From contig QNQO01000803.1 of the NCBI GenBank assembly GCA_003290165.1, forward strand, positions 434,001 through 498,000: 64,000 nt of DNA, written 5' to 3'. The position numbers and the translations under genes are program-made. Source of the DNA: Berberis thunbergii. Its lineage: Eukaryota > Streptophyta > Magnoliopsida > Ranunculales > Berberidaceae. Numbering within the stretch: the first letter of the stretch is position 1; every line of letters begins with the position of its first letter. Shown here piece after piece: positions 6,641 through 55,697 of this stretch. The notes under the pieces are model-generated. The model ran no database searches. It was not told where the DNA came from and was given only the letters and a program-made list of their open reading frames with translations.

Positions 6641-6714
6641 CTTATCTATTTAGGAGTCGTGGTATGGAGGGAAGTTTCCTTGTTAGCCTCGTGTTCTTAG
6701 ATACACAGAATATC

Positions 6715-6842
6715 TAAGGTACATTTCGAATTTATATTGTACCTTAGCTTACCAACCTCATGGAATTTATATTGTACCTTAGGACTTCAATACTATAAAT
6801 AAGACATGAGGTTGGTAAGCTAAGGTACAATATAAATTCCAT
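6715..6842. repeat. 31-bp perfect inverted repeat at a head-to-head LTR junction
   Basis: The segment TTATATTGTACCTTAGCTTA followed by CCAACCTCATG at 6733-6763 is the exact reverse complement of 6806-6836. The right arm belongs to the R region of the Tat-like LTR that also occurs at 14810; the left arm is the same LTR segment inverted. Together with oppositely oriented gag remnants on the two sides, this marks a junction of two related elements in opposite orientation. Confidence 0.8.
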
Positions 6843-6996
6843 GTTTACAACATTACAACTTCCTCAAATCCATGTCTGACTTTAGCATCGGAGTGTCATT
6901 GGCCACCACAATGGTGGTCTGTCGCTCATGTGCGCTCCTTGTGCAAGTCAGCAGGTTTGCAAGTCAAGGTTATAGCAGGGAGCAAAAAATGACTGC
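6774..6996 (+). repeat. Left LTR fragment of Tat-like element
   Basis: The segment matches 14789-15001 base for base over most of its length. Shared stretches include 'aagacatgaggttggtaagctaaggtac', 'gcatcggagtg' and 'ggccaccacaa', and both end in a TGCA near 'gcagggagc'. It starts with a TATA-like 'actataaata', so it represents the promoter-proximal and R/U5 parts. The U3 part found upstream of the right copy is missing and is replaced by inverted LTR sequence. Confidence 0.8.
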
Positions 6997-7003
6997 ATTA
7001 GTT

Positions 7004-7014
7004 TGGCGTCGTCC
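7004..7014 (+). promoter_or_regulatory. Retrotransposon primer-binding site
   Basis: TGGCGTCGTCC lies eight bases after the LTR end. It resembles the TGGCGCCGTC-type primer-binding site usual in plant Tat-lineage elements, with one change in the GCGCC core. Confidence 0.6.
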
Positions 7015-7154
7015 TTGAGGACGACAAAGTTCCTAACTTTTCACTAGCATCATCTCTCTTCGGGATACAAAGATATGGTGGCCACCAAATCACGCGACAA
7101 TGGATAATAAGGGGACACGTCAAATGCCCAAATTGGCGCTATACCGCCGCTCTC

Positions 7155-8110
7155 AGTGGTACCGGCACCACACGGGTAGATGGACCCCAGGATAGATTTG
7201 TTGTCGTCTCAAATGCATCAAATCGTCAAAGCAGTGGAGGTTCTCATACAACAGAACCCTCCACCCGCTATTGGAGATCAGGAGTAGCACAAGCCTCCAT
7301 CTTCGTAAGATAACAAAGAGCAAGCACGGGAGAGTCAAGCCCCTACTAATTCTCATTGGACTAGAGGAGCCAGCGCAGCTAACACGGAACCGACTCTCAG
7401 GGTAAAGAGGTTCGGCCTTCAAAACCACCTCCGCAGAGGGGCGCATGACCCATACATGTTGTACCGTCTCTCTATTCCAACGTTCATGGATCGTATCATG
7501 CTCTTCCAAAGAAGTTCACGTCTCGAATGAGACACTCAGAGAATATGTAACATGCTTCAACAACGAACTGACACTTATTGACTGCTGCTGTGACGACACA
7601 GCCGCGATGGCTTTTACGGCGAGCCTAAAGGAAGGAAAACTTTATGAATGCCTCACCTTGGAACTCCTTTGAATATGACGGAACTCTTTAAGAATGCCCA
7701 GAGGTACATCACCTTAGAAGATATGAGAACTATGAAGAGGGAATAAGAAGTTGAGAAAAAACCCTTCACTTCTAAAGACGGGAAGAAGCGAAAAGGGCGA
7801 GAGGATGAAGAAAAGAGCAAGCAAATGCGTAATGACCATAGATCAGACCCTAGCCGGGCCAAGCCAAAAAAGACATCCAACTACGTTGGATCTAAGTCCA
7901 TGACCCCCTCAATTCTAGCCTATCAAACCTTTTGAATTCCATGAAGAACTGGAAAGATCTGAAATGGCCCCCGAAGCAGCGCGGAGACCCCTCCAAATGT
8001 GACAATAGCAAGTACTGCTCATACCACAAAGAGGGTGGCCATGACACTAACGACTGCAAAAGTCTAAGGAACGAGATTGAGTACTAGATTCGCAAGGGCA
8101 AGTTAAAGGT
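7155..8110 (+). pseudogene. Tat-like gag, broken and internally deleted
   Basis: Successive plus-strand frames give an N-terminal part with 'QMHQIVKAVEVLIQQNPPP', then 'TLREYVTCFNNELTLIDCC' (about 7530-7590), a helical 'MTELFKNAQRYITLEDMR' segment (7676-7730), a Lys/Arg/Glu-rich linker, and 'KWPPKQRGDPSKCDNSKYCS' with the YHKEGGHDTNDCKSL motif (about 8020-8060). All are landmarks of Ty3 gag polyproteins. The central capsid part expected between the first two segments is missing, and stop codons occur at several points. The copy is therefore non-functional. Confidence 0.8.
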
Positions 8111-20603: not shown

Positions 20604-21306
20604 TGTAAGGGAAATACCTGTTAATGCAGATAATTCCAACACAAGTCCTAGACCTAGGTGGTGATAGTGAATGGCTACGAACGCTATGCAAGCAATAGCA
20701 AACAACAAGCAATGTGCAGAAAATAAAGATGACACCAAGATTTATGTGGTTTAGCTTTGCCTACTCCACAGACGACGACTCTGTAACTATTTTATTGATA
20801 TGGAAACACTTACTTGAAGATTATAACGTTGTCAAACAACAATCCTTGAGATTACCCAATCTCAAGCAAACAATACCATCAAAAGTTTGACGAAACTCGC
20901 AAACGAATAACACCTGAAATCGCCCGATTCCAATCCTTCTACTTGGCTACTGTTTCACGCTACACACACACCAATTCACACTGAACTCACAGCCCATTTC
21001 ATGCCATGCTCGCAATCGGTTTCATGCCGTATTGCTCTTGTTGCATGTTTCATGCCGAGTTTGCTACGTACGCTACCATGTTTCAGCGCTTTGCTGCTGC
21101 TGCTACATTGTTTTTCTCCTCTTCATTCACGTTGTTGTATTGGCTGTTTTAAAGAGAAAAAATAGGACTAATTTGTGAAGGACTAAAATGCTTGAAGTCC
21201 TTGCTTGTGAAGGACTTTAACTCCCAATAAATTGGGAGCCAACACCAATTACACAATGGACTATGAGTCCTTATTTCTAACGGACTGTGAGTCCTACTTT
21301 GTCTCA
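20604..21306 (-). repeat. 3' LTR of the copia element
   Basis: On the plus strand it runs TGTAAGGGAAAT to TTTGTCTCA, giving TG...CA ends. It matches 37987-38497 through 'tccaacacaagtcctagacc', 'gatgacaccaagattta', 'cccaatctcaagcaaacaat' and 'tttgacgaaactcgcaaac'. At 703 bp it is about 190 bp longer than the partner. Confidence 0.92.
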
Positions 21307-21319
21307 CAATCTCCACCTT
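21307..21319 (-). promoter_or_regulatory. Copia polypurine tract
   Basis: On the minus strand, AAGGTGGAGATTG immediately precedes the TGAGAC start of the 3' LTR, the position and composition of a plus-strand primer. Confidence 0.75.
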
Positions 21320-21509
21320 GGCGAATAATTTCAAGCCACCACACAAACATCACAAACAACCACATAAGCATCTCCATCTTGGCATGAAAAATCGCCAAGA
21401 TCCATTTCTTGGTCACGAGAATCATCGTCATGCCACTAAGGGCCCTGTCCCCTTGGAGCGTCAACACTGAGAACGCCTGATCAAGTTGAGACAATGCTCA
21501 AACTTGATC

Positions 21510-22900
21510 CCTAGAATCACTTTTGTCAACATATCAGATGGATTGTATTAAGTACTCACCTTCTCCAAGAAAACCTCGCCATCTTCAATGACATCTCTCA
21601 GAAAATGATATTGCACATCAATGTGTTTGGTTCTGGTATGATGAACCTAGTTCTTCACCAAATGGATAGCACTCTGACTGGCACATAACACTGTCACGTC
21701 ATCCTAAGTAACACCTAAATCACTAACCAAGCCTCGAAGCTAGATGGCTTCTTTCATAGTCTCCAATAGAGCCATGTACTCTGCTTCAGTAGTAGACAAA
21801 GCAACTATAGATTGTAACTAAGACTTCCAACTCACCGAACCCATCGCCAATGTAAACTAATAACATGTAGTTGATCAGTGCCTATAAAGATCACCAGCAT
21901 AATCCGAATCAACATAACCTCGGATCATATTTGACACATCTCCTCTCTCATATACTAAACCAACATCCAGCGTACCCTGAAGATATCTCAATATCCACTT
22001 CACTGTCTGCCAATGTTGTTTTCCCGGGTATGACATAAACCTATTAACCAGACTTACTGCATGAGCGATATCCGGACGTGTGTAGATCATGGCATACATA
22101 AAACTACCAACTGCACTAGCATAGGAAACCTGTGAAATGTATTCCCTCTCATCCTCTGTGTTAGGAGACAATTTACCCGAGAGCTTAAAGTGAGAAGCCA
22201 AAGGAATACTTACCGGCTTAGACGTATCCATGTCAAAATGGTGAATAACCTTCTCTAAGTATTGTCTCTGTGACAATGTCAGTCTGCCCTTCTTTCTATC
22301 TTTCATTATCTCTGTCCCAAGTATCTTCTTCGTTGGACCAAGATCTTTCATCTCAAACTCCATGCTAAGTTTCAACTTTAATTTATCATTTTTTCTTATG
22401 TTCTTCGTAGTAATAAGCATGTCATCAACATAAAGTAAGAGAAACACAAAAGACCCATGCTTGAGCTTCTGTGTGAATACACAAGGATCATACTGACTCC
22501 TCGCATATCCCTACTCAATCGTAAAAGTATCAAACCTCTTGTACCACTACCTCGAAAATTGCTTCAGTCCATACAGTGACTTCTTAAGCTTGCATACACT
22601 TTCTTCCTTGCCAACAACAACATATCCATAGGGCTGAGACATGTATATGTGCTCAAAATCTCCATGCAAGAAAGCAGCCTTGACATCAAGTTGCTCAAGC
22701 TCTAAGTTAAACTGCGCTGTTAAAGCCAAAAGGACTCGGGTAGAAGTGTGTTTTACAACCGGAGAGAATACTTCAATGTAGTCCACACCTTCTTGTTGTA
22801 CATATTCTTTAGCCATCAGCTCGCCTTGTAACGTATACCTGTACAAGTACCCCTGGAATCTGGAATCCCGTCTTTCACTGTGAAAACCCACTTACACCCA
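21510..22900 (-). pseudogene. Copia reverse transcriptase and RNase H, broken
   Basis: The minus strand from 22891 gives 'LYRYTLQGELMAKEYVQQEG', 'VFSPVVKHTSTRVLLAL' and 'LEQLDVKAAFLHGDFEHIYM', the copia RT fingers/palm start. From 22447 it continues with the catalytic LLLYVDDMLI box, 'MKDLGPTKKILGTEI', 'RPDIAHAVSLVNRFMSYPGK' and 'GYVDSDYAGD', the RNase H start. After a stop at 21875, other frames still show ALSTTEAEYMAL and the HIDVQYHFLRD end of RNase H. Stops and frame changes, for example between 22547 and 22447, abolish function. Confidence 0.93.
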
Positions 22901-23007
22901 ATCGACCTATTCTCTTTAGGGAGTGTCACAAGCTCCCATGTATGATTTTTCTGAAGAGATAGCATCTCCTCATCCTAAGTTTCCTTCCACTTCTCTTTCT
23001 GAACACT

Positions 23008-26000
23008 TCACAAAGCTTGCGTGTATGTGGTAGGAACATCATCATACCCATCAAGAACTGAGAATGCGCAAGCTGCGCCATCCTCATAGTCAAATCTAAG
23101 TGGTGAACGACTAACTCTAGGTTCTATGCATGCTACTAAAGACGATGTTTGTAACTGTTGAACCTGTTGTTGTGTAGGATCCATGTCCCCATCAGTAGGA
23201 ACCTCATCTTCTGTTACTGTCTCATCAAGCATCATATATGTATCATCCCTTCCCTCAGTAGAAGGAACATCATGCTCTAATGAGATCTAGGAGCTCGAAA
23301 CTCCATTTGCAGAGATCCTCCATCATCCTCATCTTCATCATATCTATCACCCCTCCAAATAAGGGAACCAGATTTGCATCTCTCGTACTTTGCCTGTAAC
23401 AAAACATCCTCATGGAACTTCACATCTCGACTGATCAAAAACTTCTGCAAGTCAGGGCACCATAATCTATACCCTTTCACATTATCTGGATAACCGAGAA
23501 AAATAGCTTTTTTGGCCCTTGCTCCAATTTTATCTTCCTTAACATGAAAATATGTTGGACAACCAAATAATTTCAAGTTAGAATAATCTGAAGAAATACC
23601 AGACCATACCTCCAGAGGAATCTGATACTCAATAACTGATGAAAGAGAGCGGTTAATGAGATAGCATGTCGTGTTTACTACTTCAGCCCACCATATTATG
23701 CCCAAACCTACACTGGACAACATGCACCGTGCTCTCTCCAACAAGGTACAATTCATTCCACTCTGCTACCCATTCTATTGTGGTGTCGACTTCACTATGA
23801 AGTGTCTTCTAATGCCATGTTCCAAACAAAACTGTTTCAACGAATCCTCAGTATACTCACCGCCATTGTCAGATCTCACTACTTTGAACACCCTTCCAGT
23901 TTGTTTCTCAATCATAGCTTTCCACTTCTTGAAGATATCAGTGAGTTCATTTTTATGTTTCATGGTATACAACCATACTCTTGATGCGTTATTTTAGTAG
24001 CACACAATTTAATACCCTGATTTGTGATTGTAGTATAGAATAAGTAGGGATCGTTCTAGACCGGGGATTAGAGGGCTTGTCAATTAACACTAATAATAAC
24101 TAAACGACAACTAACAACCTAATTATCTAAATAAAAATGGATTGGATTTTCTAAATTAAACTATAAATATACCTATGAAAATTATTGTAAAGATAATAAA
24201 CTAAAGGGATGGCAAAGACGAGAAATTAGCTAAGGGTTTATCTCCACACACCAAACATATGTTTATAAATCAATCTTCAATAATCATTTGCTAACTCGTG
24301 AGAGACAATGCTCAAGACTAACCGTGACTGCACTGCATTAATCTTATTATTTTCCCAAATTCGTTGAATTAAACTAAGCATCGCTTTCAAACTATTCTTA
24401 TCATGCTATCTAAACAGGAATCGCAAGTTAGACAACAATCTAAGATCATCAAGTTTTGTGGATAATATGAACACTGACTAGGCAATTACAAGTATGATCA
24501 ACATCTTGTTCTTGCCTAGGTTTCTACTTAACCTTACCAACGTTCCTTGGTATTTACTACTTGTGAGTACAAAATCATAACAATTAGGTGAAACTCTCCT
24601 ATACTCTAGCCCCAGATCCTAGCATGCTTACTAAGTTGGTCACCTTAACAAACATACAAAGAAAAGTTCTCTATAAAGCAGTTAAGCAAAACACAATCAC
24701 TAATAGCAAGGAAGATTAAATTCAATTAATTTATAAAACACATGTTCGGGGCTTCGAATCCACCCATAACTAAGAGGAGTTTAGCTAGACATATTAATTA
24801 TGTTCAAATAGTAATCCCTAATCAATAATTAAACTAAAATAAGTAAAAGAGTTAAGTGATGAAACAAAACACTGTAGCCAGATCCGTGGTGGTAGAGAGT
24901 GGAAATTGGGGTGCAAATAGTGTGATCTCTTCTTTCTCCATCCTCACTTCGCGATTTGCTTCAGTTATGTTTTATTTCGATCTCTGCTTGTGACAGAGTG
25001 AGAGAGATAAGGGGATGACGAGGGACAGCGAGAAAGAAAGGGAGATTAGGCGGTGTCGTTGTGGAAAGGTTTGGCGAGGTTGTTATTTCGAGAGAGAGGG
25101 GTTACGGTCCGATGAGGTCTATGGCGATGATTGGATGATGACTGAGACAGAGATGGGGGACGATAATGGCTGCGGCTATGGATGAGGACAGTGACGATGG
25201 GTGATGATGGGTTCAAGATGATGGCTTGATGGTTGTTGTGAATGAGGACGACGGCGGCTGTGAGGATGGGTTTTCTACAGAGAAAAGATAACGAGATTGA
25301 AGGGCGGTGTTGGGCTGCTGGTTGTGATGCGAGGATGATTGATGAGCTGTGGTTGTGATGGCGGGGTGTGGATGGATTCTAGGTGACGGCGGCTAGGGTT
25401 TGGCGAGGAAAGCCATGGACGGATGATGATGGGTGACGGCATGCTATGGTTGCAAGCGTCCTTGCTCCAAGGCAGGTTTCATTCCTTTTATATTTGTTTT
25501 CTGCTTGGTTTCCTTGTTGGTGTGATTTCCTTGCTTGTGTGATTTCCTTGTGTAATTAGTATTTCTAAATTGCCAATTTGCTTCTATTTTAAAATATTGT
25601 AATTGAAAACCTACACAAACATGAAAATAGCAATTAGTACCATAATTAACAAGTAATAGCTAAAAATATATATAGAAATATGGTACTAAAAATAGCCTAA
25701 TTATGCCCCTATCAACTCTCCGACTGAAGTCATCGATAAAAGACACAAAATACCTGGAAGCCCCCTTAGATACGACTCTAGAGGGTCCCCAAACATCAAT
25801 GTATATTTAATTCACAATCTCCTCGGTGCTATGAGTAGCATCACTAAAACTAACTCTGCACTGCTTCCCATAGATGCAATGTTCTCATAAATCAAACTTT
25901 GCCATTTTATCACCGCCAAGCAAACCTCGCTTGCTTAAAGTTCTTAGTTCATTCTCACTTACATGCCGTAATCGCATGTGCTATAATTGTATGCGCGTCA

Positions 26001-26300
26001 AGCTTTTATCATCAACAACTGTAAAAATCATAGCTTCACCTTCAACTATACTACCTTGAAGGAAATACAATTTGGCATGCCTAACCGCTGACATAAGCAA
26101 CCTGTCACCAAAATAAACATTGCAATACACATTCTCACCAATATACTTGTAGCCCTGAGCTTCAAGCACCCCAAGAGAAATCAACCCCTTTGAAAGAGCT
26201 GGAATATGACATAAGTTGTCTACATTACCCATCTGCCAACTAGAATTTAACTGTACCAACACCCATTGTCTTGCAAGGCCAAGAGTCATCCATTTTAACT
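23008..26300 (-). pseudogene. Copia integrase, broken and split by a solo LTR
   Basis: From the right, 26289-25981 encodes the segment before integrase (NLCHIPALSKGLISLGVLEAQGYK). Then come a catalytic-core segment with FIDDFSRRV at about 25720 and, after the 1.73-kb insertion, 'WLYTMKHKNELTDIFKKW' and 'VVRSDNGGEYTEDSLKQFC' (23976-23775). 23756-23277 holds the C-terminal part ('LLERARCMLSSVGLGIIWWA', 'KLFGCPTYFHVKEDK', 'KAIFLGYPDNVKGYRLW'). Acidic 23235-23008 is the linker to reverse transcriptase. Besides the insertion, stops are present. D and DN(G) residues of the core are still readable. Confidence 0.9.
23982..25714 (-). mobile_element. Solo LTR (Ty3-type) inserted in the copia integrase
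   Basis: The plus strand begins TGATGCGTTATTTTAG and ends ATTATGCCCCTATCA, giving TGAT...ATCA ends. The flanks ACTCT at 23977-23981 and 25715-25719 form a perfect 5-bp duplication. Without the insert and one duplication copy, the integrase reading RRVWLYTMK is restored. Read on the minus strand, the 3' end holds 'ctagaacgatccctacttat', like the ends of Athila/Tat LTRs. Length is 1733 bp with no internal coding region, so it arose by recombination between LTRs. Confidence 0.88.
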
Positions 26301-26572
26301 GAATTGACCTTAACCTCGCGATAAGTGTTGAACCATTCCCTTACGGGACACATATGATACGAAGCTCCCGTATCCAACATCCAACCGTCATACAAATGGT
26401 CATAAGATTTTGCTATCAGTGCATGTGCTAACTCACCCTCGATTAGAATATCCTCTACCACATCCGGTGCTTTAACAACATTCACTACGCCCTTACTCTC
26501 ATTCTGTTGCTTATTGTGATTATTCTTCCACTCTATACAATTCCTTATGTAATGGCCTTTGCGCTTACATTT
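26240..26572 (-). pseudogene. Copia gag 3' part (zinc knuckle) and protease
   Basis: The minus-strand frame begins inside the zinc knuckle as CKRKGHYIRNC, then 'DVVEDILIEGELAHALIAKS', and the protease active-site region WMLDTGASYHMCPVREWF with an intact DTGA. The first half of the knuckle (FECHK) lies 10.6 kb away at 37191, beyond the CACTA element. Joined conceptually, CX2CX4HX4C is complete. At about 26240 the frame shifts into the following segment. Confidence 0.92.
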
Positions 26573-26589
26573 CACTACACCAAAAGGCT

Positions 26590-26820
26590 TGTTTAGCTAC
26601 AGGGAGGTGGCCACGACTCTAAACCATTGGTTAATTTGCCACGGCCAAAACCCGTGGCTATAACGGCCATCAGTTTAAAACCGTGGCTAAAAAAAAGGTT
26701 GCCACGGCCAAAAACCGTGGCTAACTGGCAACAGTTAAAAATCGTGGCTAAAAAAAGGATTGCCACGGCCAAAAACCGTGGCTAAATGCCAACGGTTTAA
26801 AACCGTTGCTAAGCTTTTGC
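26590..26820. repeat. CACTA left subterminal palindromic repeats
   Basis: About eight units of 'gccacggccaaaaaccgtggcta' and variants, each a near-perfect short palindrome, lie directly inside the left terminus. Such clusters are transposase-binding sites in characterised CACTA elements; here that role is inferred. Confidence 0.85.
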
Positions 26821-27992
26821 TTTTCACGTGAGTTTCGCGCTTTGGCGAAATTTTTTTTCGCACTTTGGCTTTGTCGAAATTTTTTTTGGCGCTTTGGAGG
26901 GAGCCGTTTTGTTCAAGCTGGCAAAAAGAATTGAACAGAAGAAGCTGGCGAGGTGTTTTGTTCAAGTGTTCGTGAGGTTCGCGAGGTGTTTTGTTCAAGT
27001 TGGCGAGGTGAGTTTCGTGAGTGAGTTCGCAAGGAAAGAGTAAGGAGAAAGTTTTGTTCTTCATCAGGTAACAAATAAAGAATGTTTGTTTATTGTTCTG
27101 GTTGTTTGATTCATTTAGTTTGATTGGTAGATGAAGTGTCCAGGGTTTTGAAGCAAGGGGTGTTTGGATTTGTGGTTAGAAATGTTGGGTGTTATTCAAT
27201 TTCTGATTTTTATGTGTTTCAAGTTTGAAGGGATGTTAGTCAGATTTGGGGTTTAAGTGATTAGGAAGGTTTGGGTTTTGATGAGTTTATTGATTTTGAA
27301 TAAATGGGGTTTTAGATTTGTGGTTATTGATGAGTTAGAGATGTTGGGGTTTTGTTCAATATGCGAAAAGTTGAGATTTTGAAGGTCAGATTTGGGTATT
27401 TTAGTGGTTAGGAAGCTTTGGGTTTTGATGGGTTTAGCAGTTTTGAATTAATGGGGTTTCAGACTCGTGGTTATTGACGAGTTAGAAATGGTGGGGTTTT
27501 GTTCATTCTGCAGAAAGTTGGGATTTTGGAAGGGAGACTTTCATCTTTGGGAATTTTGGTGGTTGAGAAGCTTCGGGTTTTGAGGGTGGTTCAGTACATA
27601 TGGTTGTTGATTTGTTTTAGTGTTTTGAAATGGACTATTTGGCTGCTTGTTGTTTGTGTTTAGCACAATGAGGTGATATGTTTATTTCATAGTTGGTCTT
27701 AGGGGTTTTCAATGTAGAGATTTGGTGTCTTTGAAGGTTGAGGTTTTGAGGATTTTTTTTCAGTTGGGTTTAACAATTGTTTGCTTATTTACTTGTGTAA
27801 ATTAGGGTTTTGAATAGTTTGATTTGCGGCTTATCTTAGTTGAGAAATTTAGGGTTTGCATGGTTGAGGGATTTGATTTGGTTTTGGCTATTGTTCAACT
27901 TCATGATAAAAAAAAATGATTGGATGTTTATGTGAAATTGGGGCTTTTTGTATGTTGTTATTAACTTCCAAGTACTTTATCCAATGATACAG
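26821..27992 (+). other. CACTA 5' region, possible promoter and leader of the chimeric unit
   Basis: The first 240 bp hold repeated 'gtgttttgttcaagt' and 'tttggcgaaattttttttcg' units; the rest is T-rich with repeated 'gggttttgatg(g/a)gttta' and 'ttgtggttattga(t/c)gagtta' phrases, indicating internal duplications. No coding region was recognised. Position upstream of all captured exons suggests a promoter and leader intron, but this is inference. Confidence 0.4.
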
Positions 27993-28240
27993 ATCTAAGC
28001 TTGGAGTTTAAAGAAGAAATAATGGCATTGTCAATAACTTGCCCTAATAAGATGATGGATTTTGATATTGATGAAGGGAAAAAAGTATATGGCGTAGTTA
28101 GGCTCATGGGATCAATGGGGAGGAAGCGAGTGGAACCATTGTGTCTCTACTCCCCTTCTAAAACTCCATTGAAGAAGCCATGTCGTGCAAGGAGGAGCTC
28201 GGACATGTCAATGTTGGAGAGGCTACCAGAAGACTTATTG
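27993..28240 (+). pseudogene. Captured FBS-type F-box gene fragment
   Basis: An exon-like segment lies between an AG acceptor at 27991 and a GTAGGT donor at 28241. It contains MMDFDIDEGKK, 'VRLMGSMGRKRV', 'SPSKTPLKKPCR' and ends MLERLPEDLL, the start of an F-box, which in this family reads LExLPxDLLVRIL. The basic stretch before the F-box is like the plant F-box stress-induced (FBS) group, from memory. The rest of the F-box and the C-terminus are missing. F-box proteins bind SKP1 in SCF ubiquitin ligases; this piece alone could not. Confidence 0.7.
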
Positions 28241-28350
28241 GTAGGTATTATGATGATTTTTTCTTTTCCAAACTAAAAACTATGTTGTCTACTTTGATTG
28301 ATTGTGAGTTATTACAGAGCTCTGGCTAATATTTGTTTGTTATATTTCAG

Positions 28351-29157
28351 ATTAGAGTTTCTGCTGTTTGTAACCAAGTGGTGTCAGACAATTGAACAAA
28401 TGGAAGATCAAGTTTCTGTTGTTCTCGAGGAAGAAAGGTTATTATTGTCTCATACCTGCATTTTCTCTACTTGTGAATTTTTTTTTTTGGTGTTATTTGA
28501 AAATAAAAGTTCCATCTGTTTGCAGGGAAGAGAGAGCTCTAAGAAAAGCTAAAATGGAGGCAACAAAGGTTCGTTTTATTAGTGGGCTAATGTAAAAACT
28601 TTTATACACAAATAATTTCCGAAGTTCTGTCTCTTGCAAATCTTTTGGCCCATTCCTTTGTGTCCAACTTTGCAAGTTGGTTTATATTGTGGAGACAAAA
28701 TTATCTTTTGGTTCTTTTTATTCCTCACTAGTGTGCACGGCTACAGCTGCTCCTGTATTTAAGATATCAAGGGGAGTCAAATAATAATCTGATAATCACC
28801 CATAATGAATAGTGTGTTAGTTTATGAACTCTAATATGTTTTACTAAGTGTTCATGTTCTTGTATCATGAAGATGTGCATTTTCTTTTTACAGGCCTCTG
28901 TTGGAAACAACAGAATGGGGAAGGAAGTGATCAGTGCCCAACAAGCGGAAGATCTCAAAATGAAAGAAAAGCGAAAGCGGGAGCGAGAGGTTTCATAATT
29001 TTTCCCTCTAGTTTGTTTCATTTCTGGATGCTTGTTACAACATAAATGTTGATTATGTGGAGGCATTACTTTGATGTAGAAAAATTTGCCACGAAAGAAG
29101 CGTCGTAGGCTGGAAGCTGCTCAAGAGATGGAGGACGAAGGTGATGACATAGAACAG
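28351..29157 (+). pseudogene. Captured RH28/DRS1-type DEAD-box helicase C-terminal exons
   Basis: Four exons join in one frame: 28351-28437 (ending TIEQMEDQVSVVLEEER), 28526-28568 (EERALRKAKMEATK), 28894-28989 (ASVGNNRMGKEVISAQQAED, LKMKEKRKRERE) and 29080-29157 (KNLPRKKRRRLEAAQEMEDE). AG acceptors and GT donors sit at every edge. A possible fifth begins after 29262 (GGHRGKKEKE). The text matches, from memory, the charged tail after the helicase core of plant RH28, a DRS1/DDX27-type ribosome-assembly helicase. The helicase core is absent, so no ATPase activity is possible. Introns show capture at DNA level. Confidence 0.8.
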
Positions 29158-29299
29158 GTCTGTTTTATCATCGCTTTTGCAGATGCATTAACTGAATCAT
29201 ATTCCTTGTTGGTGGGGAGTTTGTCTAGAGTCATTAAGTACGTGGACACCAAAAAATTGCAGGGTGGACACCGAGGTAAGAAAGAGAAAGAAGTATATC

Positions 29300-30321
29300 C
29301 AAGCGAAAGTTCATTGCATTTGATCTATGTGCTTTGTGAGATAAAAGTTCATTGCTCATGTAAGGTTTACTTGCAGTTACAAGTGAAAGTAGCGGTGACA
29401 ATCATTTTGCATCTTAACGTTCATGTACCCATAGCTTCAAAGTGACCAAAATCAACCCTCATTTCTCATTGGGTTTCATGTCCTCAGTGCCAAGCTCTTC
29501 ATCCATTGCTAATTTATTCTGCAATCACCAATTTTTGTGATGTAGACCCATATCTGCAGCCAGGTATTTAAGATCTAGAATGAATAAACATCTAGAATGA
29601 ATAAAGTTAAGTCATCTACTTCTTACAGAAATATAGTATAGTCTTTCTTACAATCAAAACCTGGTGGAGTAAAAGAAATTTGATGTTTGATTTGTTATGA
29701 GAGTTGCCTCCATTATGTCTCTCTGTATGCACCTTAAGTATATCCAAAAAACCTTTCCTTTAGTTCAGCTGAAAAATTCCGATCGAAACTATTTGTGTAT
29801 TCTCTTGCATATATACTTTACTAGTTTGTCTATCATGTCTTGAAACGTATATACATTACTAGTTTGTATGATGTCACTGTTTCAGGGAGACCATGTGGCA
29901 CTATTGTTTGCATTTTCAGAGATAATGAATGACTATTTGTATAACTCGTTTGCATGTATGCCAATAATTTATTTATATGTTTTTTATTGCTCTTTTTTTT
30001 CCAGAACCTGAATATTCATTTCATTTAAAATGTTGATCTTGGTGAAATGCTCACTACAATTTCCACAACAATTATGATTATTTAGTCTAAACCAATTTTT
30101 ATTAATTAGAAAACAGAAATGCTTAAAACAAAATGAAAAGTTGCATATGAACCGTAGCTCTATTGAAATGTTTAAGGACCAAGCAATTTTCTTTGTGAGA
30201 GTATGCACAACAAGGAACTAATATTTTTCTGTTTTGGAAATATCTAAAGATTTACTACTATGATCTCTGTATTGCTCATTGTTCAATCTGGCTAAGTCTT
30301 TCTTTTCTTTTCTATTTTTAG
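29300..30321. other. CACTA interior without recognised exon
   Basis: AT-rich, intron-like sequence between captured fragments. I read no conserved protein motif on either strand. Confidence 0.4.
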
Positions 30322-30479
30322 GTATGTACGTATAAAGATGGAAAGGTTATTATAAATACTGCTGCTGGCGTGCTTGGAAAATATGATCCTTGTCCTGTTC
30401 AGCCAGATAGCTTATTTTCTGTTTTCTCAGTAACAAAGGGAATAACTGCAGGATTGTTACACTGGCTAGTTGACAATGA
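30322..30479 (+). pseudogene. Captured ABC1-kinase/beta-lactamase-type gene exon
   Basis: Between a TTTTTAG acceptor and a GTATGT donor the exon reads VCTYKDGKVIINTAAGVLGK, YDPCPVQPDSLF, then 'SVFSVTKGITAGLLHWLVDN'. The SVTK tetrad is the SxxK nucleophile motif of class C beta-lactamase-like serine hydrolases. The whole segment matches, from memory, the beta-lactamase domain of the plant ABC1-like kinase/beta-lactamase fusion protein. Only one exon is present, without the kinase part or the second catalytic motif. Confidence 0.75.
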
Positions 30480-31586
30480 GTATGTTACAGTTTCCAGTTC
30501 TCCATAATTTCATTTTGATCCCTTTCTTTTTTCAAGTTTAGTGGTTCTACTACCAAGCTTCGTTTAACAAGAATATAACTGAAACTTTGAAAATAGTAAA
30601 CATGCATCAGCAAAAAGTCTTTCCCTAGAGCATGAAGGTTTGAGTCAACTATATAGAACAATTATAAGTAGCTGGGAAGGGCATTTGAGCACATCCACTG
30701 TAAAAATAGTTGCTTACCCATCCTTGTCTGACAGGTTTTCTATTTATCTTTTTGTAAACTCTCCATGATCACCATATAGTTTTTTGAGGATTTATTTTAG
30801 GAATTCGTAAATATATGTTATGTGTTTCTTAATGTGTAGGAAGCTCCAAGCCAGGATTTATTTATCATCTTTGTTTCTAATGTTGCTACAAGCACAATTG
30901 ATTATGTCAAAAGCTTCCTAGATGAAAAGTATGATTATTGCTAAGAGATAAGTTTGCATAACAATTGATTATTGCTTGTTTTATGGCTTTTCATTAAAAG
31001 AGAGATCAAAAGTTTGCATAACTGGTGTTGTTGTGGTATGTTGTATGTAGTTAATACTATATGATCTTTTGCTACAATGAGTTAAGTTTGGAAATGATGA
31101 ATACAAGAAAAGTGGTAAGCTCTATCTATCCTTTCTCCTTTTCTGACTTTTTTTCTTATGACGTTTGAAAATAACAAGAAGTTTGAAAATATGACAATCT
31201 GATGACGTTTCTGAACAGGAATGCGAGGATGAGGCTTAAGCTTCAGTGTACAGATGATTCTGCTATTTGAATTTGCATATGATATTCATAAACAGAAAAT
31301 GTAAAAAAGAAAAAGAAAGTGTTCTGAGAATTTATAGATGTTCTATTTGTTTTCCTTTTCTTGTTTCTGAAAAGATTCTTGTCAAATAGTTTTCTGATAA
31401 AACTTCTGACATCTTGAAAGACGGTTGAAAACCCAAACTTCAAGAAAAGAGATATTATGTACAAACTCACTCACCATTGTTACTACTAGTCCCATCTTTT
31501 GTATAGTTTTCATGCCCACCACCCCACATGACATTTGATTTTTATCACTTTTTAAACCATTTTTTATCCTTTGTCTGCACGGGCAG

Positions 31587-32169
31587 ATATGCCTGCTATC
31601 ATTCTGCAGTCTTCTAATGCTTCAAGTTCAAGCACTGCTGACTGGAATGGACGGACGCCATCTTCTGAATTGGAAGATGTGGAATCTGGGGACGATCTCG
31701 AAACTTCCTCCCATGCTGAAAACATTCCTAGTTCAGGATGTGAGAATGCTTCTGTATACACGCATAACGCAGCAGGTAAAAGTGGTATGAGATAATAAAT
31801 TAACCCTCAAAAATTTGCTCTCAGTAATTCTATATGTTTATATTGGAGCATTTTATTTGCTTCCTAATCTTTAGATACTAGCTCTTGTCTTTACTGCTTT
31901 TCAGGACATTTGAGTTCATCTAGGATCCACTTGAAAGAAGGTTTGATGGTGTTCATTCTATTCAGTTTCCAGGCACATCTGTTTGGTCTGAACTTCACAT
32001 CCCGAGCGGAAACATCGATAGCGTCCAAGAAAATTTCACTTTTTATGACCGGCAAAATGGTGCTGAAGCCATCGCTAGAAAATCGATAGAGTCAAAGTTG
32101 GATGTCTGTAACTTGCTCAAAGACGACATCAGTGGTGGAAACCTAGTTTTTCCTGATATGCATCTGTAG
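31587..32169 (+). pseudogene. Captured gene fragment of unknown origin
   Basis: Exon 31587-31775 (CAG acceptor, GTAAAAG donor) encodes a Ser-rich acidic text, 'MPAIILQSSNASSSSTADWN' then SSELEDVESGDDLE. A second segment from 31905 to a stop at 32169 is protein-like in one frame: 'RRFDGVHSIQFPGTSVWSEL', 'IPSGNIDSVQENFTFYD'. Joining the two exons by their splice sites lands in another frame, so an indel has occurred. I do not recognise the source gene. The two exons may come from the same gene. Confidence 0.5.
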
Positions 32170-33650
32170 ACATCAATTTCTCAAGGACTAGTTCAGGTTT
32201 GTTGTCATCTCACGCTTCTTTAGATGATTTGTTGTTCTCAAGAGTTAGCAAATTTCAAAAGAGAATCTCATGTACATTTGCATTGATCTAATCTAAAAGG
32301 GCCCTAAAGCTTCTATTATGGTGTTATCTCAGTGTGTAAGATAAGGGAGTGTTGGAAGAAAAAATTTGTAAATGGAAGAAGGTGCAACATTTGTCAAATT
32401 ATATGAAAGGATGAATTTTCTTTGTTCAGCTGATCCCATATAAATTGATATAAGCTTTAATTATGATTACCACCCTAGTTGTCAAGCATTGTAATCTCAG
32501 AATTCATTCTATACACATTACATTCTTACTGAATCAGTCTTCACTGAACATATAATCTTTGCAGTTGTTATCAACTTTACATGCAGGGTCTTGCAAAATC
32601 CATAGCATGGGATGGTGAAGGAGCAGTGTGTTTGATTGAGGTTTTGTATTACCAAAACAGTTCTTAAACACAAAGCATGTTTTTTTATACACTTTGTTGT
32701 GTTGAATGTTTTTTATTTTGCCCCTTCAATGTTATATCTTGAGTTTTGCATTGCATTTGGCATGATGACTAGTCATTAGCTAACAAAAAAAATAGACAAG
32801 CAACTTATTGCGCGAATTGATTCGGTTTTTTCATCTATCAATTTTTGAAAATTTTGGTTCTTTTCATCTATCTTGTGTTGGTCGAACCCGAAAAAGTATG
32901 AAGTATAATGGAGGAATGCTTAGGCTCCATGTTTTGACATACTTTGGCAGTAAATGCTATGAATATAATGCAAAAGAATAGGTAGTTATTAACATTGTGG
33001 AATTACAGAAGGTGAGTATAGGAAGAAGAATATTATAAGAAGAATTTTTAGTTGTTACAAGGGTATGATTAATTTTCAGTTGCAAAGCACCAGATTATTA
33101 TAGGAAGAAGAACATTATAGGGTGGATTTGGGATGCTTTTTCAATATATGAAACAGAGATGTATACCCTGTTTTTTGCTGCAACAAAAAACAGAGAATGC
33201 TCTGGTTTCGAGCTTTGTTTTGATGAGTGTTTGGAGTTTTCTTTGAGGCGTTTGGTGGTCTCTTGCCTGTGGTTTGTAATGACAGAGTTAGGATGCAGTA
33301 AGGACCTATTTTCCTAATAAGATTCGAGGGTGGGTTTGCTTTAAAACTTCTGACTTATGTGTTGGTTTATTGATTTTTTATTTGTGATTGTGGTATTTTA
33401 TTGTATGGGTTTTTTATTTGTGATTGTTGCATTGACTAGATCAGTTTGAGTCTTTTATTGTTTAAAGGGTTTTCATAATCTGATCCATATTGTGAATTGT
33501 TGAGGCACTTGCCCAATGATGTTAATGAAGCAGTGTTGACATTGATGATTTTTGTGAGAAGGTAAAACAACAGTTATCTTCATCTTGCCTGCATTTGTGC
33601 ATGATTTCTCCCTTGGTCTTGTTCTCACTTTAGCTTGATTATTGTCTCAG
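32170..33650. other. CACTA interior without recognised exon
   Basis: T-rich, intron-like DNA. No conserved protein motif or transposon end was found. Confidence 0.4.
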
Positions 33651-33869
33651 GCACAACTTGTTAACTACATCCAGTATAGAGCTTTGCTGGAGGGAAGGAC
33701 TTCTCGTATGTGGACAAAATATATCGGTGTTCTAATATGGAAGACTCAGAATCCTTGGACTGGTCTTAGAGGTCAGTTCTATGATCATCTCCATGACCAA
33801 ACAGTAGGATTCTATGGCTGCCGCTCTGCAGCAGAACCAATTCATGTCCAACTGAATCTGGCAACAAAG
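33651..33869 (+). pseudogene. Captured endo-beta-mannosidase exon
   Basis: A 219-bp open exon between CAG and GTACCA encodes 73 residues including [19 protein letters not shown], '[20 protein letters not shown]' and '[20 protein letters not shown]'. From memory this is a conserved stretch of plant mannosylglycoprotein endo-beta-mannosidase (glycoside hydrolase family 2), which trims N-glycans. No other part of the enzyme is present. The exon has no stop, which suggests recent capture or short residence. One deviation I expect from the family text is GRT for GW(S/T), which I cannot verify here. Confidence 0.82.
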
Positions 33870-34880
33870 GTACCATTTATTTATTAGGAAGCAACTCTGA
33901 CACCGTGAAGACATGTTTCCTTATTTGTTTTCGAAAAAAAAAAGTTATTTATCATTGACTAGCTGCATTTTCTGGATGTGATGGCTTGGCTGATAAGATT
34001 TATCTTGTCGATTCAGAATGCAAGTGCTATATTACATAGTCTCCCCTATTTCCCTAGTGTCTCATCCTTCAGAATGCTTCTTAAGGCTTTTTTTCATGCC
34101 TATAATCCTCACCTATAAACTTTTATTAATTGTTGTTTTCTTTTTATAAGCCTATGAATGCAATGTTTTAATGTTCTTCTCTAGCCTTTCACTAAAGGCA
34201 TGCCTCTTGACTGCATGACCATATGTAGTTGGTTCCCTTTATTCTTTCATATAAATTAAAACTTACACTACTAATTACTCTCATTGCATTTAAATACATC
34301 CACCCAGTTCAAATGGCATGTCACTGGTCAAGGTAGTAAAACCGATCACGACCCGATCGGTGTAACCAGTCAGGTGGGTCAACCCGAAATGACACGGAAA
34401 TACAAAAACTTATGACCTGAACTCATTTATATCAAGCCAGTTTCGATTGTGTCATCGTGTTCTGATTACCAGGTCTACCCCGACCTGACCATTGGTAGGC
34501 CTAGGATTGAAAGATGGAGATGATTATCTACATCTTAGTTCTGCTCAAAATATTTTCATATACATGTCTTTGCAAAGATCTGTTCAATGCTCACAGAGTT
34601 GGGATTCTTACGATTCTCTTACTGTATTATATGAATGAGCTCGAGTTGGCTAGAATATGTCTCATTAGTCCATAGTGTGGGACTTGACAACCCTGTTTTG
34701 ACTGAGAAAGCATGTTAACAGTAGTACATGAACATATTTATAAAAAATCTACATTTCCTTAAATTTCGATGCGTTTGGTTGCTATGTTCTTATGTTTATG
34801 TTAAGCTGTAATCTGGCAGCTAAGTTGATTTTGAAGTATTTTACACAAGCTGAGCATAGTTATGGTCATGCTACTCTCAG
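33870..34880. other. CACTA interior; possible inserted repeat at 34330-34500
   Basis: Mostly intron-like. The segment 34330-34500 is richer in GC, with 'gatcacgacccgatcgg', 'gtgggtcaacccgaaatgacac' and 'ccccgacctgacc', as in the solo-repeat debris common in plant introns. I could not assign it. Confidence 0.35.
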
Positions 34881-34967
34881 GTTCAGAGCGGCCACTTTGA
34901 GGAATTTTTTGCCCCTGAATTGGATAAACATGGTTATCAAGCTCTCTTCAAGAAAAAAACAACAGAG
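34881..34967 (+). pseudogene. Captured CCR4-like deadenylase exon
   Basis: An 87-bp exon after a CTCTCAG acceptor and before GTTGTC encodes VQSGHFEEFFAPELDKHGYQ then ALFKKKTTE. It corresponds, from memory, to the EVQxDHFEEFFAPELDKHGYQALYKxKT segment of plant CCR4 (carbon catabolite repressor 4) deadenylases, part of the exonuclease/endonuclease/phosphatase fold of the CCR4-NOT complex. The metal-binding residue of the preceding exon end (the E of QEVQ) is not encoded here. Confidence 0.78.
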
Positions 34968-35454
34968 GTTGTCTTATGAATTTATTTGTTCTTAAGAGTT
35001 TTTTTTTTCTGTGGAATTTTGTTGTTCTTTCTTAACTTTACTTTTGGAGCATGTTACTCTAATTAGCTAGAGCTCGATGTTGATCACTAGGGAGAGGACC
35101 CAAACTGGCACCTACATCAATTTTATTTAAAATTAAATCTTTAACCTTGATGAAGTATTGGATATTGAAATTTTGGAGCCTATTTGATTGTCTGATGCTT
35201 CAGTGATATCATTGAAAGACAGGCAAAAGGATCATAAATGATCCCTCAAGATTTCGTTGTTTCATTTCAATGTTTCGCAAATGTGAATTGCATATTAGTG
35301 CTTGTTTCCATGAATTGCACCCATTGGCATAGACAAGCTAGGTCTATGAATGTCCCTTCAGTTTGGAAGATTTGATTTTGTATGTTTAAGAATTGTTGAT
35401 TTCTCTTCATTTTAGACTACCATGTCACTCTCATGTGTCATGATTGTTTTGCAG

Positions 35455-36030
35455 ATTTTCAAGTGAAACAATTATACTTGTCAAAAAATAGGCTATGGTC
35501 AGGTGCCACAAGAGCCTGCATGTCGCAGTCCACTGAAATTTCAACTGCACCGGAAGACTGCAAAAGGAGTCGCCCTTTAGTAAAGATGTGTGGAATTACA
35601 TTGGCAAGAAATGCAGCCCTGGCTGCAGAAGCAGGTGCTAACCTTATTGGGATAATTCTCTGGCCAAACTCAAAACGTTCCATCTCAACCTTGGTTGCAA
35701 AAGAAATTTTGAAAGTTGCAAGGGAATACGGAGTAGAACCTGTAGGTGTATTTGTGGATGATGATGTGAACACAATATCAAGTGTTTCTGATGCAGGGAA
35801 TCTTTAGCTCGTACAGGTAAGTCCAACTTCAGTGATCATGCAATGCAGTGAAGATCTAAAGATACTAACTATTTAAGTTGTGCAGCTTCATGGAAATCAT
35901 TCCAGGACTGCTTTTCCAGTTTTGCTGCAAGAAAGGCGAGTTGTATATGTTTTTCATGCCAATGAAGAAGGCGAACTCCTGAACCAAATTCCTGAGGAAG
36001 AATGTTTTGATCATTGCAACTGGTAATAAA
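35455..36030 (+). pseudogene. PAI: Captured phosphoribosylanthranilate isomerase (PAI) fragment
   Basis: Exon 35455-35816 encodes a leader and the start of the barrel: 'LVKMCGITLARNAALAAEAG', 'NLIGIILWPNSKRSIS', 'VEPVGVFVDDDVNTI', DAGNL, then an in-frame TAG where plant PAI continues DLELVQ. Exon 35886-36030 gives LHGNHSRTAFPVLLQERRVV, YVFHANEEGELLN and ends in a stop. PAI is the third committed enzyme of tryptophan synthesis in plastids. KxCGIT with the catalytic-base Cys is intact, but the later active-site Asp strand is absent and a nonsense codon truncates the product. Confidence 0.85.
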
Positions 36031-36143
36031 GTAAGTATATAAATGCCTCTTTTGAAGTTTGCTCTCTGCGACGAATGTTAAGAATTATCATGTGTAGTTT
36101 TCCTTGCTGAAAGATAGTTTTGCGGCTTTGTTTTGGATTGCAG

Positions 36144-36800
36144 GGGCATTGTAGGAGAGGCAGTTGCGGGAATCACAATGAGCGCAGGCACTCAGCCTGA
36201 TATACTTGCTGGACTGCAAGTGGGCGGTTCGCACTGGGGCTGTGCATTTATCTGGTGTATAGGATGTTGTTGTTTTTTATGCAGGAGCGAGGATGCGCGT
36301 CGAGCAGGCTTGCAGCACACCTACACTCTAGTACCACATCCAACAGGTTGTTGGTTGGAACACTGTTGCAAAACAGAGTGTATATATATGCTGGGAGCTG
36401 AGATGTTGCAGACTGATGGTTTTCTGCGGCCTACTGAGATGTTGCGGCCTGTTGAGGAGATGTTGTTGTTGTGCCCAGCATCGAGATGGTGGATGCGAGG
36501 GATGGTTACTGCATGCTGCTGCGAAACACAGTTCGCGAGGGTACGATGCAGCGTCCTGTTGGATTTTTTTCAGGGTGATTATTCAGATGGCGTTGGTGTT
36601 TCAGCGTGTGCTGGCTGCTTGGGCAAATTTACGTGCATTCTGGTTGGGTCATTTGTTTGGCCTCAAGTCTTTTTGATGTTTTAAGTTATGTCTTTGTCGT
36701 GGCAATTGTTTAAAGGACAGGTTTTTTCTATTGTTTTGGTTTTAATACGGGTAACGTTGTAATGTACCCACGTAGCGTTTGTAAGTCAATTTTTGATAAG
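36144..36800 (+). other. CACTA 3' region, possible terminal exon of the chimeric unit
   Basis: An AG acceptor at 36142-36143 precedes 'GIVGEAVAGITMSAG' in one frame, which runs open to 36684 but becomes Cys/Trp-rich and low in complexity. I do not recognise a domain and do not call it a protein. 'aataaaggtctggcattcc' at about 36801 could serve as a polyadenylation signal for transcripts crossing the captured exons. Confidence 0.35.
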
Positions 36801-36884
36801 TAATAAAGGTCTGGCATTCCATAGTTGCCCCTCCCCACTGGAGGTTAATTTAAAAAAAAATTGAATATTGAATATTTTTTACTA

Positions 36885-37175
36885 GCCACGGCTTAAAACC
36901 ATGCTAAAATTTTAGCAACGGTTTTAAGCCGTGGTAAGTATGGCCACGGTTTTAGGCCATTGCTAGTACTTGCCACGGCTTAAAATCGTTGTTAACATTT
37001 TAGCAACAGTTTAGAACCGTGGCTAAATCATCGACCATCCTAAACATAAAACCGTTGCTAAAATTTTAGCCACGGTTTATAGCCGTCATGGGTGATTTCG
37101 CGACGCCTCTACAGCCCATGCCTCTTAGCCGTGGCCATCAGTTACCCCCACGGTTCCAAACCGTTGCTAATGGGG
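36885..37175. repeat. CACTA right subterminal palindromic repeats
   Basis: About a dozen alternating half-units of 'agccacggttttaagccgt(g/t)gc' lie just inside the right terminus, mirroring those at 26590-26820 and at 1362-1860. Confidence 0.88.
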
Positions 37176-37190
37176 AAATTTGGTGTAGTG

Positions 37191-37931
37191 TTTGTGACAT
37201 TCAAACTTAGACATATCTCTGCCTTTTGATTTAGACCGGTTCCTTCTGTAGTTGTTCCTTTTGTAATTTCTTCCCCTTGTCACTAAAATACCATGTGCTT
37301 GAACCTCTTCATTCGAAGTACTCTTTCTGGAAGCCTTTGCAAGTACAGCTTGAACAATATCACTATACACAAATTTCTCTTTCTTCAATGTAATCATCTG
37401 ATCAACAAACGATTCTCATTCCAGTAACAAAGAAATTAACAAGAATAATGCTTTTTGACTATCTTCAAATTTAGCTCCCAAGCTAACACAATCTGAGTAT
37501 AAACATTCAAATTCATTTATGTGATCAGTCATGAGTTTACCTGGCTGCAACCTGAAAGTGAGGAGCTTCTTCTGTAGGTACAACACACTCATCTGATCAT
37601 TCTGAAGATACACAGCCTAAAGCTTATCCCAAATACCCTGAGCCGTTATCTCATCAGCGAAGTTGTAACCACATTGCGAGAAAGACAAATGAATCGTACT
37701 ACATGCTTTCTAATCCATTTTACTCCACTTCTCGATAACCTCAATCTTCACCTTATCTGATGATGGTTTCCCTTTATCATCTAGTATATCAATCCGATCC
37801 AAGCTAACCAGAATATCTTTACAAACCATCTGCCAAGCTTTAAAATTGTTCCTACAATTGAATCGAACAATGTCGAACCTATGGACTTTCACATAGCCAT
37901 CATCACGCGATGAAAAAGACCTTTCAGCCAT
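37191..37931 (-). pseudogene. Copia gag, 5' part, broken
   Basis: The start codon at 37931 gives MAERSFSSRDDGYVKVHRFD then FNCRNNFKAWQMVCKDIL, the usual copia gag opening. Further frames show 'YLQNDQMSVLYLQKKLLTFR', 'DHINEFECLYSDCVSLG' and, before the breakpoint, RRNRSKSKGRDMSKFECHK. Stops occur at 37710 and 37416, among others. The last residues are the first half of the zinc knuckle that resumes at 26572 beyond the CACTA element. Confidence 0.92.
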
Positions 37932-37972
37932 TTTAATTGACACCTTCAAAACACAAACACCAACTAACTGGT

Positions 37973-37984
37973 GCTCTGATACCA
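37973..37984 (-). promoter_or_regulatory. Copia primer-binding site (initiator tRNA-Met)
   Basis: On the minus strand TGGTATCAGAGC starts two bases after the 5' LTR end. It is complementary to the 3' end of plant initiator tRNA-Met, the usual copia primer. Confidence 0.95.
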
Positions 37985-37986
37985 CT

Positions 37987-38497
37987 TGTAAGGGAAATGC
38001 CTTGTAATGCAAATAATTCCAACACAAGTCCTGGACCTAGGTAGTGATAGTGAATGGCTAAGAACGCTATGCAAGTAATAGCAAACAACAAGCAATATGC
38101 AGAAAAAAAAAAAAAAAAACAAAAAAAAAAACAAAAAAAAAAGATGACACCAAGATTTACGTGGTTCGGCTTTACCTACTCCACGGACGACGACTTTGTA
38201 ACTATTTTATTGATATGAAAACACTTATTTGAAGATTACAACGTTTTCAAGAAACGTTCATTGAGATTACCCAATCTCAAGCAAACAATACCACCAAAAG
38301 TTTGACGAAACTCGCAAACAAAAAGCACCCGAAATCACCCAATCCCAATCCTTCTCCTTGGCTATTGTTTCACGCTGCACACACACCAATTCACGCTGAA
38401 CTTGCAGCCCATTTCACGCCAAGTTCGCAGCCTCTTTCACGCTGCATATGCTGCCCTGTTTCAGCTGTGTGCGTGTTGCTACTGCTGAAGACTCACA
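37987..38497 (-). repeat. 5' LTR of the copia element, shortened
   Basis: On the plus strand it runs TGTAAGGGAAAT to GACTCACA. It matches the 3' LTR in order until about 38470. The last roughly 190 bp of the partner (about 21110-21300) are missing and the remaining end meets the GGTTG duplication directly. The lost part is U3, where the promoter would lie. An A-rich slippage tract of about 43 bp at 38104-38146 is absent from the partner. Confidence 0.88.
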
Positions 38498-54526: not shown

Positions 54527-55697
54527 GGCAACGACTACTCCACACCACCAAAAGTGTTTTCTTACACCATTTTACTTTCCCACACCACCTACTTTCTTTC
54601 CCACACCACCTATATAAACAAAGAAACAACATTTTTTTTCCTCCCCATTAAAATCAAAACACAAGTCTCCCCTCCTTCATTCAAATCTTCCCACTCCCTC
54701 AAATATCTTGCAAAATCAAAACCAATATCTTCCCTCTACCTCGAAAATCCCTTCCCTCTCCCTCAAAATTGAAACCCTTAAAAATTGAACCCTAACTCGC
54801 AACCTCTCCAAAATCTTTCAGAAAAACAAAGTAATATCATGGAAACTTCAAAAATATTTTCAATCACAAAAACAAAGTAAACTTCAGAAAAAATTTCAAA
54901 AATCACAAAAAAAAAAAAAAAACTATAGTTCGGTTGAAAACTTGCATTGGTCTAGGCGAACAGTAAAAAATTTGCTGAAATTTCTTGTTCACCCTGAACA
55001 ATGCAAGTTTTTGCATTGGTTTAGGGGAACAGGAAATTTAAACAAATTTTTTCAGACAGATTTGCAAAACTTTAGTAAAATGACCATAACTTGCTCATTT
55101 CAAAACATTTTCAAGTGATTCAAGTTTTATTTATTAGATAACTCATATTACTACAACTTTCATGTTTTGATCAACTTGAGAATCGGTCTCAATCAAGCAC
55201 ATAAGTTGACCGAAAGTCAGGGACATAATATCGTTTTCATTGTGATACAGATTTGTGCAACTTTAGTAAAATGACCATAACTTGCTCATTTCAAAACATT
55301 TTCAAGTGATTCAAAAGTTTTTTTTATTAGATAACCCGGGTTACTACAATTTTTATGTATCAACTTGAGAATTGGTCTCTATCAAGCACATAAGTTGGCT
55401 GACATTCAGGGACACTATCCCATTTTCCTTGCTAGACAAATTTGTGCCACTTTAGTAAAATGGCCATAACTTGTTCATTTAAAATCATTTTTGAGTGATT
55501 CAAGTTGTGTTTATTAGATAACTCAGATTAGTACAATTTTCATGTTTTAACTAGTTTGAGAATCGGTCTCAATTAAGGGTTTAAATTGGTCGAAAATTAC
55601 CCTTTTTTAAGTTACCATATTTTCAAAAATAGTTTTTTGGATGGTGTGAGTAAGTAAGAAAAAAAAAACCCAATGGTGGTGTGGAGTATTCGTTGCC
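54527..55697. mobile_element. Mutator-like fold-back element
   Basis: The ends GGCAACGACTACTCCACACC and GGTGTGGAGTATTCGTTGCC are inverted repeats with one mismatch, followed inward by further matching CACACCACC/TTCTTAC blocks. The 9-bp flanks TTTAAATAA and TTTAACAAA agree at seven positions, compatible with a decayed 9-bp duplication of the Mutator superfamily. The interior has three tandem copies of a repeat near 189 bp and no transposase. Confidence 0.7.
55057..55620. repeat. Tandem repeat, about 187-191-bp unit, three copies
   Basis: Each copy carries 'cagatttgtgcaactttag', 'atgaccataacttgctcatt', 'tattagataactca' and 'ttgagaatcggtctcaat'. Copies start at 55057, 55248 and about 55434. They form the core of the fold-back element. 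Confidence 0.88.

Follow-up and report, generated by a model that had tools for sequence, protein, structure and literature searches.

A stretch of 64,000 nucleotides from Berberis thunbergii (contig QNQO01000803.1, positions 434,001 to 498,000 of the forward strand; hereafter the window, whose numbering we use) contains a 10,618-bp CACTA-type transposon at 26573-37190 in which pieces of unlinked host genes, introns included, lie head to tail on one strand. With high confidence we read it as a probably non-autonomous Pack-CACTA element from a large family, which would have been filled by template-switch capture, spread in trans and trimmed by end joining. It carries pieces of at least five, and probably seven, unrelated host genes. 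An initial annotation, made from the letters of the window, had proposed a Pack-CACTA transposon with exons of six unrelated host genes, and the general reading holds, given the CACTA ends, the repeated unit and the five donors found on five contigs. The parts of the element and its insertion site are as follows.

26570-26572, unstranded: left target site duplication, TTT
26573-26584, plus strand: left terminal inverted repeat, CACTACACCAAA
26636-26812, plus strand: left subterminal palindromic repeats
26813-28368, plus strand: 5′ region with a 147-bp tandem repeat; G exceeds C at 27001-28000
27068-27992 and 27993-28240, plus strand, within the 5′ region: possible leader intron, from splice signals, and first exon with ATG
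28369-29573, plus strand: RH28 DEAD-box helicase fragment with introns as well as exons, from donor C834, against which it has two internal gaps
29585-30849, plus strand: fragment of an ABC1K/beta-lactamase gene, from donor C1634, against which it has three internal gaps
30850-32580, plus strand: stretch without a donor, including exon-like 31587-31775 and 31905-32169
32581-32810, plus strand: ArgJ (glutamate N-acetyltransferase) fragment; donor C706
33538-33866, plus strand: GH2 mannosidase/glucosaminidase-type fragment; donor C560
33867-35043, plus strand: probable CCR4 fragment with exon 34881-34967; limits set by the neighbouring modules
35044-36006, plus strand: PAI (phosphoribosylanthranilate isomerase) fragment; donor C2340, contiguous
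36007-36346, plus strand: probable end of an MDAR-like exon at the start (by comparison with C6852, where it is fuller), then a remainder without assignment
36347-36879, plus strand: 3′ region, partly common to several copies
36880-37178, plus strand: right subterminal palindromic repeats
37179-37190, plus strand: right terminal inverted repeat, TTTGGTGTAGTG
37191-37193, unstranded: right target site duplication, TTT

The element starts at 26573 with CACTACACCAAA and finishes at 37190 with the inverted copy TTTGGTGTAGTG, and these CACTA/G terminal inverted repeats are those of the CACTA superfamily. Both ends also carry the subterminal palindromic repeats expected of such elements, 24-25 nt long and of the type GCCACGG...CCGTGGC (family D1, 10 members, five per end), and a TTT duplication stands on either side. 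All three features had been reported in the initial annotation, and all are seen. The duplications are of 3 bp and not of 9 bp, the length that a table in PMC4423477 gives for Pack-MULEs. When the flanks are joined in silico by removing the element and one TTT, a Copia gag frame with a CCHC knuckle runs on the minus strand without interruption through the join; the same frame has one stop further upstream. Within the element, a scan that was not exhaustive gave only one open reading frame of at least 150 amino acids (36133-36684), and a 39-amino-acid piece of it has no Pfam match; transposase families were not searched for.

Whether these termini bound a repeated unit elsewhere was examined in the window's own genome (2.24 Gb, 11,732 contigs). 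With the first 328 bp of the element as the query there were 4011 first-look candidates, and all 40 that were scored matched, the window counted. Eleven matching places besides the window were fetched and eight of them were extended in search of both ends, and with alleles counted once and C9061 added, eight insertion loci were examined. C9061 is a complete unit from terminus to terminus, with 94.7% identity to the window copy over 10,698 columns and a Kimura two-parameter distance (K2P) of 0.037, and the unit thus recurs with the same termini elsewhere in the genome. Matching 3-bp duplications flank the element at seven of the eight loci (the window, C89, C10074, C10922, C6852, C871 and C8230), and read TTT, CAT, ATG, ACA, GTC and TCT, with CAT again at C8230. 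The element belongs to a large family that is mobile and repeated. As for alleles, agreement in both flanks suggests that C473 is the second allele of C89 and C6853 that of C6852, and on six left-flank bases C522 and C9244 seem to be alleles of C8230 and C871, respectively. The C6853 copy has about 4.8 kb extra at element position 28000 relative to its presumed allele C6852 (fetched C6853 region 3139-7935).

For five of the gene pieces we located donors in this genome, each on a separate contig (127 to 639 kb long): RH28 on C834, ABC1K/beta-lactamase on C1634, ArgJ on C706, the GH2 mannosidase-type gene on C560 and PAI on C2340. The captured fragments keep their introns, as seen in the RH28, ABC1K and PAI comparisons, and every donor matches on the sense strand (five of five, none on the other). 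Together the five donors account for 3,973 of the 10,618 element bases, an additional PAI-locus match at 36731-36859 being left aside. The initial annotation had also considered that the fragments might align to one contiguous chromosomal region holding all of these genes; the donors were found on five different contigs instead. A segmental duplication, or a true gene cluster that lies between CACTA-like ends by chance, is on this evidence extremely improbable, since the insertions have their own 3-bp duplications and the empty site is clean as well. What would look like a duplication if taken alone is C9066, which matches the window at 99.1-99.5% identity in both the element and its 500-bp flanks (K2P 0.004) and is best read as the other allele of the window locus.

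The RH28 piece matches C834 at 96.2% identity over 28369-28581, 96.1% over 28578-29293 and 93.5% over 29313-29573, compared with 82-88% over long matches to the paralogs that were fetched. A DNA query with this piece gave 142 matches from 150 scored candidates of 376, many of them to other DEAD-box genes, and three matching regions (C834, C2423 and C381) were picked and fetched. C2423 proved to be a paralog and C381 had no sense-strand match. The ABC1K piece matches its donor in four parts across 29585-30849, at 96.0-96.7%, drawn from a 3.1-kb donor span; the fetched paralogs reach 76-86% over long matches, and 93% in one 29-bp piece. At the protein level, a search with the RH28 and ABC1K region gave 888 of 1801 candidates at E 0.001, and the 120 matches listed are beta-lactamase/ABC1K and helicase proteins, the named ones all from plants. 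The ABC1K piece also has a Pfam match (PF00144, E 1.8e-9); the RH28 piece gave no PDB match at E 1. Both had been named in the initial annotation, as had PAI, and all three names stand. The PAI piece matches Pfam PF00697 (E 2.2e-13) and its donor without interruption over 35044-36006 at 96.0%, compared with 81-85% for the paralog C637. Separately, at 36731-36859 the 3′ part of the element is similar (82%) to a segment of the PAI donor locus (reverse complement, 1203-1338) that lies roughly 1 kb upstream of the portion that was captured, and the same similarity is seen in C871 and C9061.

The remaining two donors change the inventory of genes. The piece that had been called an endo-beta-mannosidase is of the GH2 type and matches C560 at 97.0% over 33538-33866 (paralogs C1191 at 91.5% and C5964 at 84%, with 96% in one 25-bp piece), but its PDB match is to exo-beta-D-glucosaminidase (2vzt_A, E 2.2e-7), so the assignment holds at the level of GH2. 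The ArgJ piece had been overlooked, and its Pfam match is weak (PF01960, E 0.022, below the family cut-off), but its identity is settled because donor C706 was found, with 96.0% identity over 32581-32681 and 80.8% over 32681-32810; the fetched paralogs reach 92 and 88%. Thus, four of the six source genes first named have donors and ArgJ is to be added to them, with CCR4 as a probable further source and the F-box gene left unconfirmed.

A CCR4 identity for 33867-35043 is probable from a weak PDB match (4b8c_D, E 0.0073). A DNA query with this module gave 41 matches from 40 scored candidates of 274 (40 places, the window counted), among which a donor is not distinguishable from element copies. 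One of the matches, C181:472121-473621, is 315 bp longer than the query between its positions 120 and 116, and may represent an insertion, retained donor DNA or possibly the donor itself. The F-box (FBS) name given to the 5′ exon is unconfirmed, with no Pfam match at E 1 in the 5′ region and no F-box donor sought. For the exons in 31587-32169, which the initial annotation had left unnamed, a search with the region gave 349 candidates, none of which matched at E 0.1. Pfam matches to Golgin_A5 and E2-E1mid were taken as chance.

Other members of the family carry further gene pieces. Four copies gave 77 plus-strand frames of at least 45 amino acids and 15 minus-strand frames of at least 70, and we tested 10 plus-strand frames, chosen by eye, in Pfam, and also searched with 10 of the 15 minus-strand frames. 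Five of the chosen plus-strand frames matched at E <0.001, namely to LRR_R13L1 (9e-7), BT1 (1.7e-7), ATP_bind_1 (1.6e-11, GPN), HCO3_cotransp (9.7e-8) and, just under its cut-off, KH_1 (5.6e-4), and the best minus-strand value was 0.046. This comparison of strands is biased because the plus frames were chosen by eye, and only the five of five sense donor matches are firm. The HCO3_cotransp frame is close to boron transporter 1 (BOR1; 5l25_A, E 9.1e-31). In C6852, a frame for which Pfam gave nothing matches MDAR (PDB 6krt_A, E 2.4e-9), and the end of this frame reaches into the beginning of the stretch (36004-37190) that C6852 shares with the window. A MATH_2 match was taken as chance, and a C89 frame tentatively read as a sugar transporter had no Pfam match.

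Next, we compared the times of capture. At each site, up to eight element copies (never fewer than three) gave a majority base, which was set against the donor and a paralog outgroup. Changes on the element side that precede amplification number 8 in 1130 outgroup-covered sites for RH28, 4 in 1190 for ABC1K, 1 in 150 for ArgJ, 3 in 329 for the mannosidase and 1 in 260 for PAI, or 17 in 3059 for all five, with no heterogeneity among donors (chi-square 2.42, p 0.66). Thirty further differences fall on the donor side and 22 are not assignable, and the window copy has private changes at 60 of 3481 sites (1.7%). Because the changes before amplification are few and alike, the five captures are placed shortly before the amplification, in a period that is short relative to its age. 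The initial annotation had offered the element as a case of serial capture, in which fragments are taken up one by one over a long time. Several donors, each with its own edges, are what that history would leave, but none of the five dated captures is further from the amplification than the others, and we regard prolonged uptake as quite unlikely. A moderate spread in time among the captures may nevertheless exist, as ArgJ, mannosidase and PAI offer few sites, the outgroups are paralogs and the counts are small.

The joints between the pieces bear on how they came together. RH28 and ABC1K lie 11 bp apart, and the edges of the ABC1K, mannosidase and PAI pieces fall inside exons. Most of the junctions that were inspected, by eye, have 1-4 bp of microhomology, and one ABC1K junction has an imperfect 12-bp overlap. 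The presence of introns indicates that capture was from genomic DNA or unspliced RNA and not from mRNA. Donor positions 1876-3018 of ABC1K are absent from the window copy, C871, C10074 and C9061, and C10922 ends at 1871, but C8230 retains 1816-1992 and 2030-3674; at least the ABC1K capture was therefore longer and was trimmed later.

These observations bear on the current model for Pack-CACTA elements, that of Catoni et al. 2019 as recounted in PMC8903248 and PMC13317346, in which neighbouring insertions fuse: their inner ends are lost, and the outer pair then mobilises the whole interval along with the host DNA in it. The head-to-tail order on one strand would suit local insertions in the same orientation. 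Fusion would, however, leave remnants of inner subterminal repeats, and among the repeat families listed (20 of 31 direct and 25 of 31 inverted) that type occurs only at the two ends; nor do the 11-bp spacing and the edges inside exons fit it well. We therefore hold growth of the composite by fusion to be somewhat unlikely.

In capture by template switching, DNA synthesis repairing a break where an element was excising or had just inserted would switch to other templates (or neighbouring elements would fuse), so that a long composite arose quickly. It would then amplify with transposase supplied in trans, and copies would lose internal stretches through end joining at short microhomologies. 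The template-switch step is one that we infer, because no capture intermediate was seen and a transposase was not searched for. Several other points weigh against the reading as a whole. C9061 is flanked by GCA and TCA, that is, by no matching duplication, and the right end of C8230 is TAGCG and not TAGTG. The third RH28 piece is just 93.5% identical to its donor, and the second ArgJ piece, which reaches 94-96% in C6852, C89 and C9061, is at only 81% in the window copy. The CCR4 and F-box pieces and 30850-32580 are without donors, and the C89 junction 33104/33585 has about 20 bp of other sequence and not plain microhomology. A stronger version, in which the entire mosaic was built in one episode, with repeated template switching, perhaps at transcribed loci, joining many unlinked sense gene pieces with hardly any spacers into a gene-like, spliceable mobile unit that then amplified, is a speculation that we think unlikely.

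Splice signals stand beside the exons of RH28, ABC1K, CCR4 and PAI, so the element could donate exons to transcripts, as Tgm-Express1 of soybean does, and the captured exons may be spliced into transcripts. With the first exons joined, translation from the first ATG would meet a stop after 87 codons, which makes a long chimeric protein unlikely.

The element is an unusually rich example of the Pack-CACTA kind, and such elements are already known. Tgm-Express1, a CACTA element of 5.7 kb, holds pieces of five unrelated host genes, both exonic and intronic, and its exon splicing was shown by reverse transcription PCR (PMC1947982). The window element differs from it in its 10.6 kb, its five traced donors, its probable CCR4 and MDAR pieces, a 1.7-kb stretch without assignment and its many-copy family. 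As in Pack-TYPE elements generally, the terminal repeats of a DNA transposon surround captured host DNA, and the interior varies between copies while the ends are conserved; the PIF and Mariner examples described are of hundreds of bp with one or two gene pieces (PMC8903248), in contrast to a 10-kb mosaic. CACTA elements also capture host genes or gene fragments in wheat 3B and grapevine (PMC4290129, PMC2528002). The account of wheat 3B gives 140 events and 145 genes, close to one gene each, and 17 genes that may have arisen through exon shuffling (PMC4290129), and that of grapevine describes a fragment in opposite orientation (PMC2528002), whereas the five located donors here are all sense. 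How CACTA elements acquire unlinked gene pieces is an unsettled question, and PMC13317346 allows for an alternative, yet undiscovered mechanism. This family has traced donors, paralogs to serve as outgroups, copies both complete and partly trimmed, and exactly defined junctions, and so allows direct measurement of the order and timing of the captures and of how they were joined.

The host of the insertion is a minus-strand Copia element at 20604-38452, with long terminal repeat (LTR)-like copies from 20604 and from 37987. The two copies are only 82% identical, with 33 gap positions that fall almost entirely within a single A-rich stretch, longer by 32 bp in the right copy; the retrotransposon was therefore older than the CACTA insertion in it. 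A second right-hand end of the CACTA element's kind lies at 1366-1860, where tandem CCACGG/CCGTTG-type repeats are followed by TTTGGTGTAGTG ending at 1860, and no matching left end was seen upstream within the window. At 55054-55577 there is a tandem array of 2.7 copies of a 189-bp unit.

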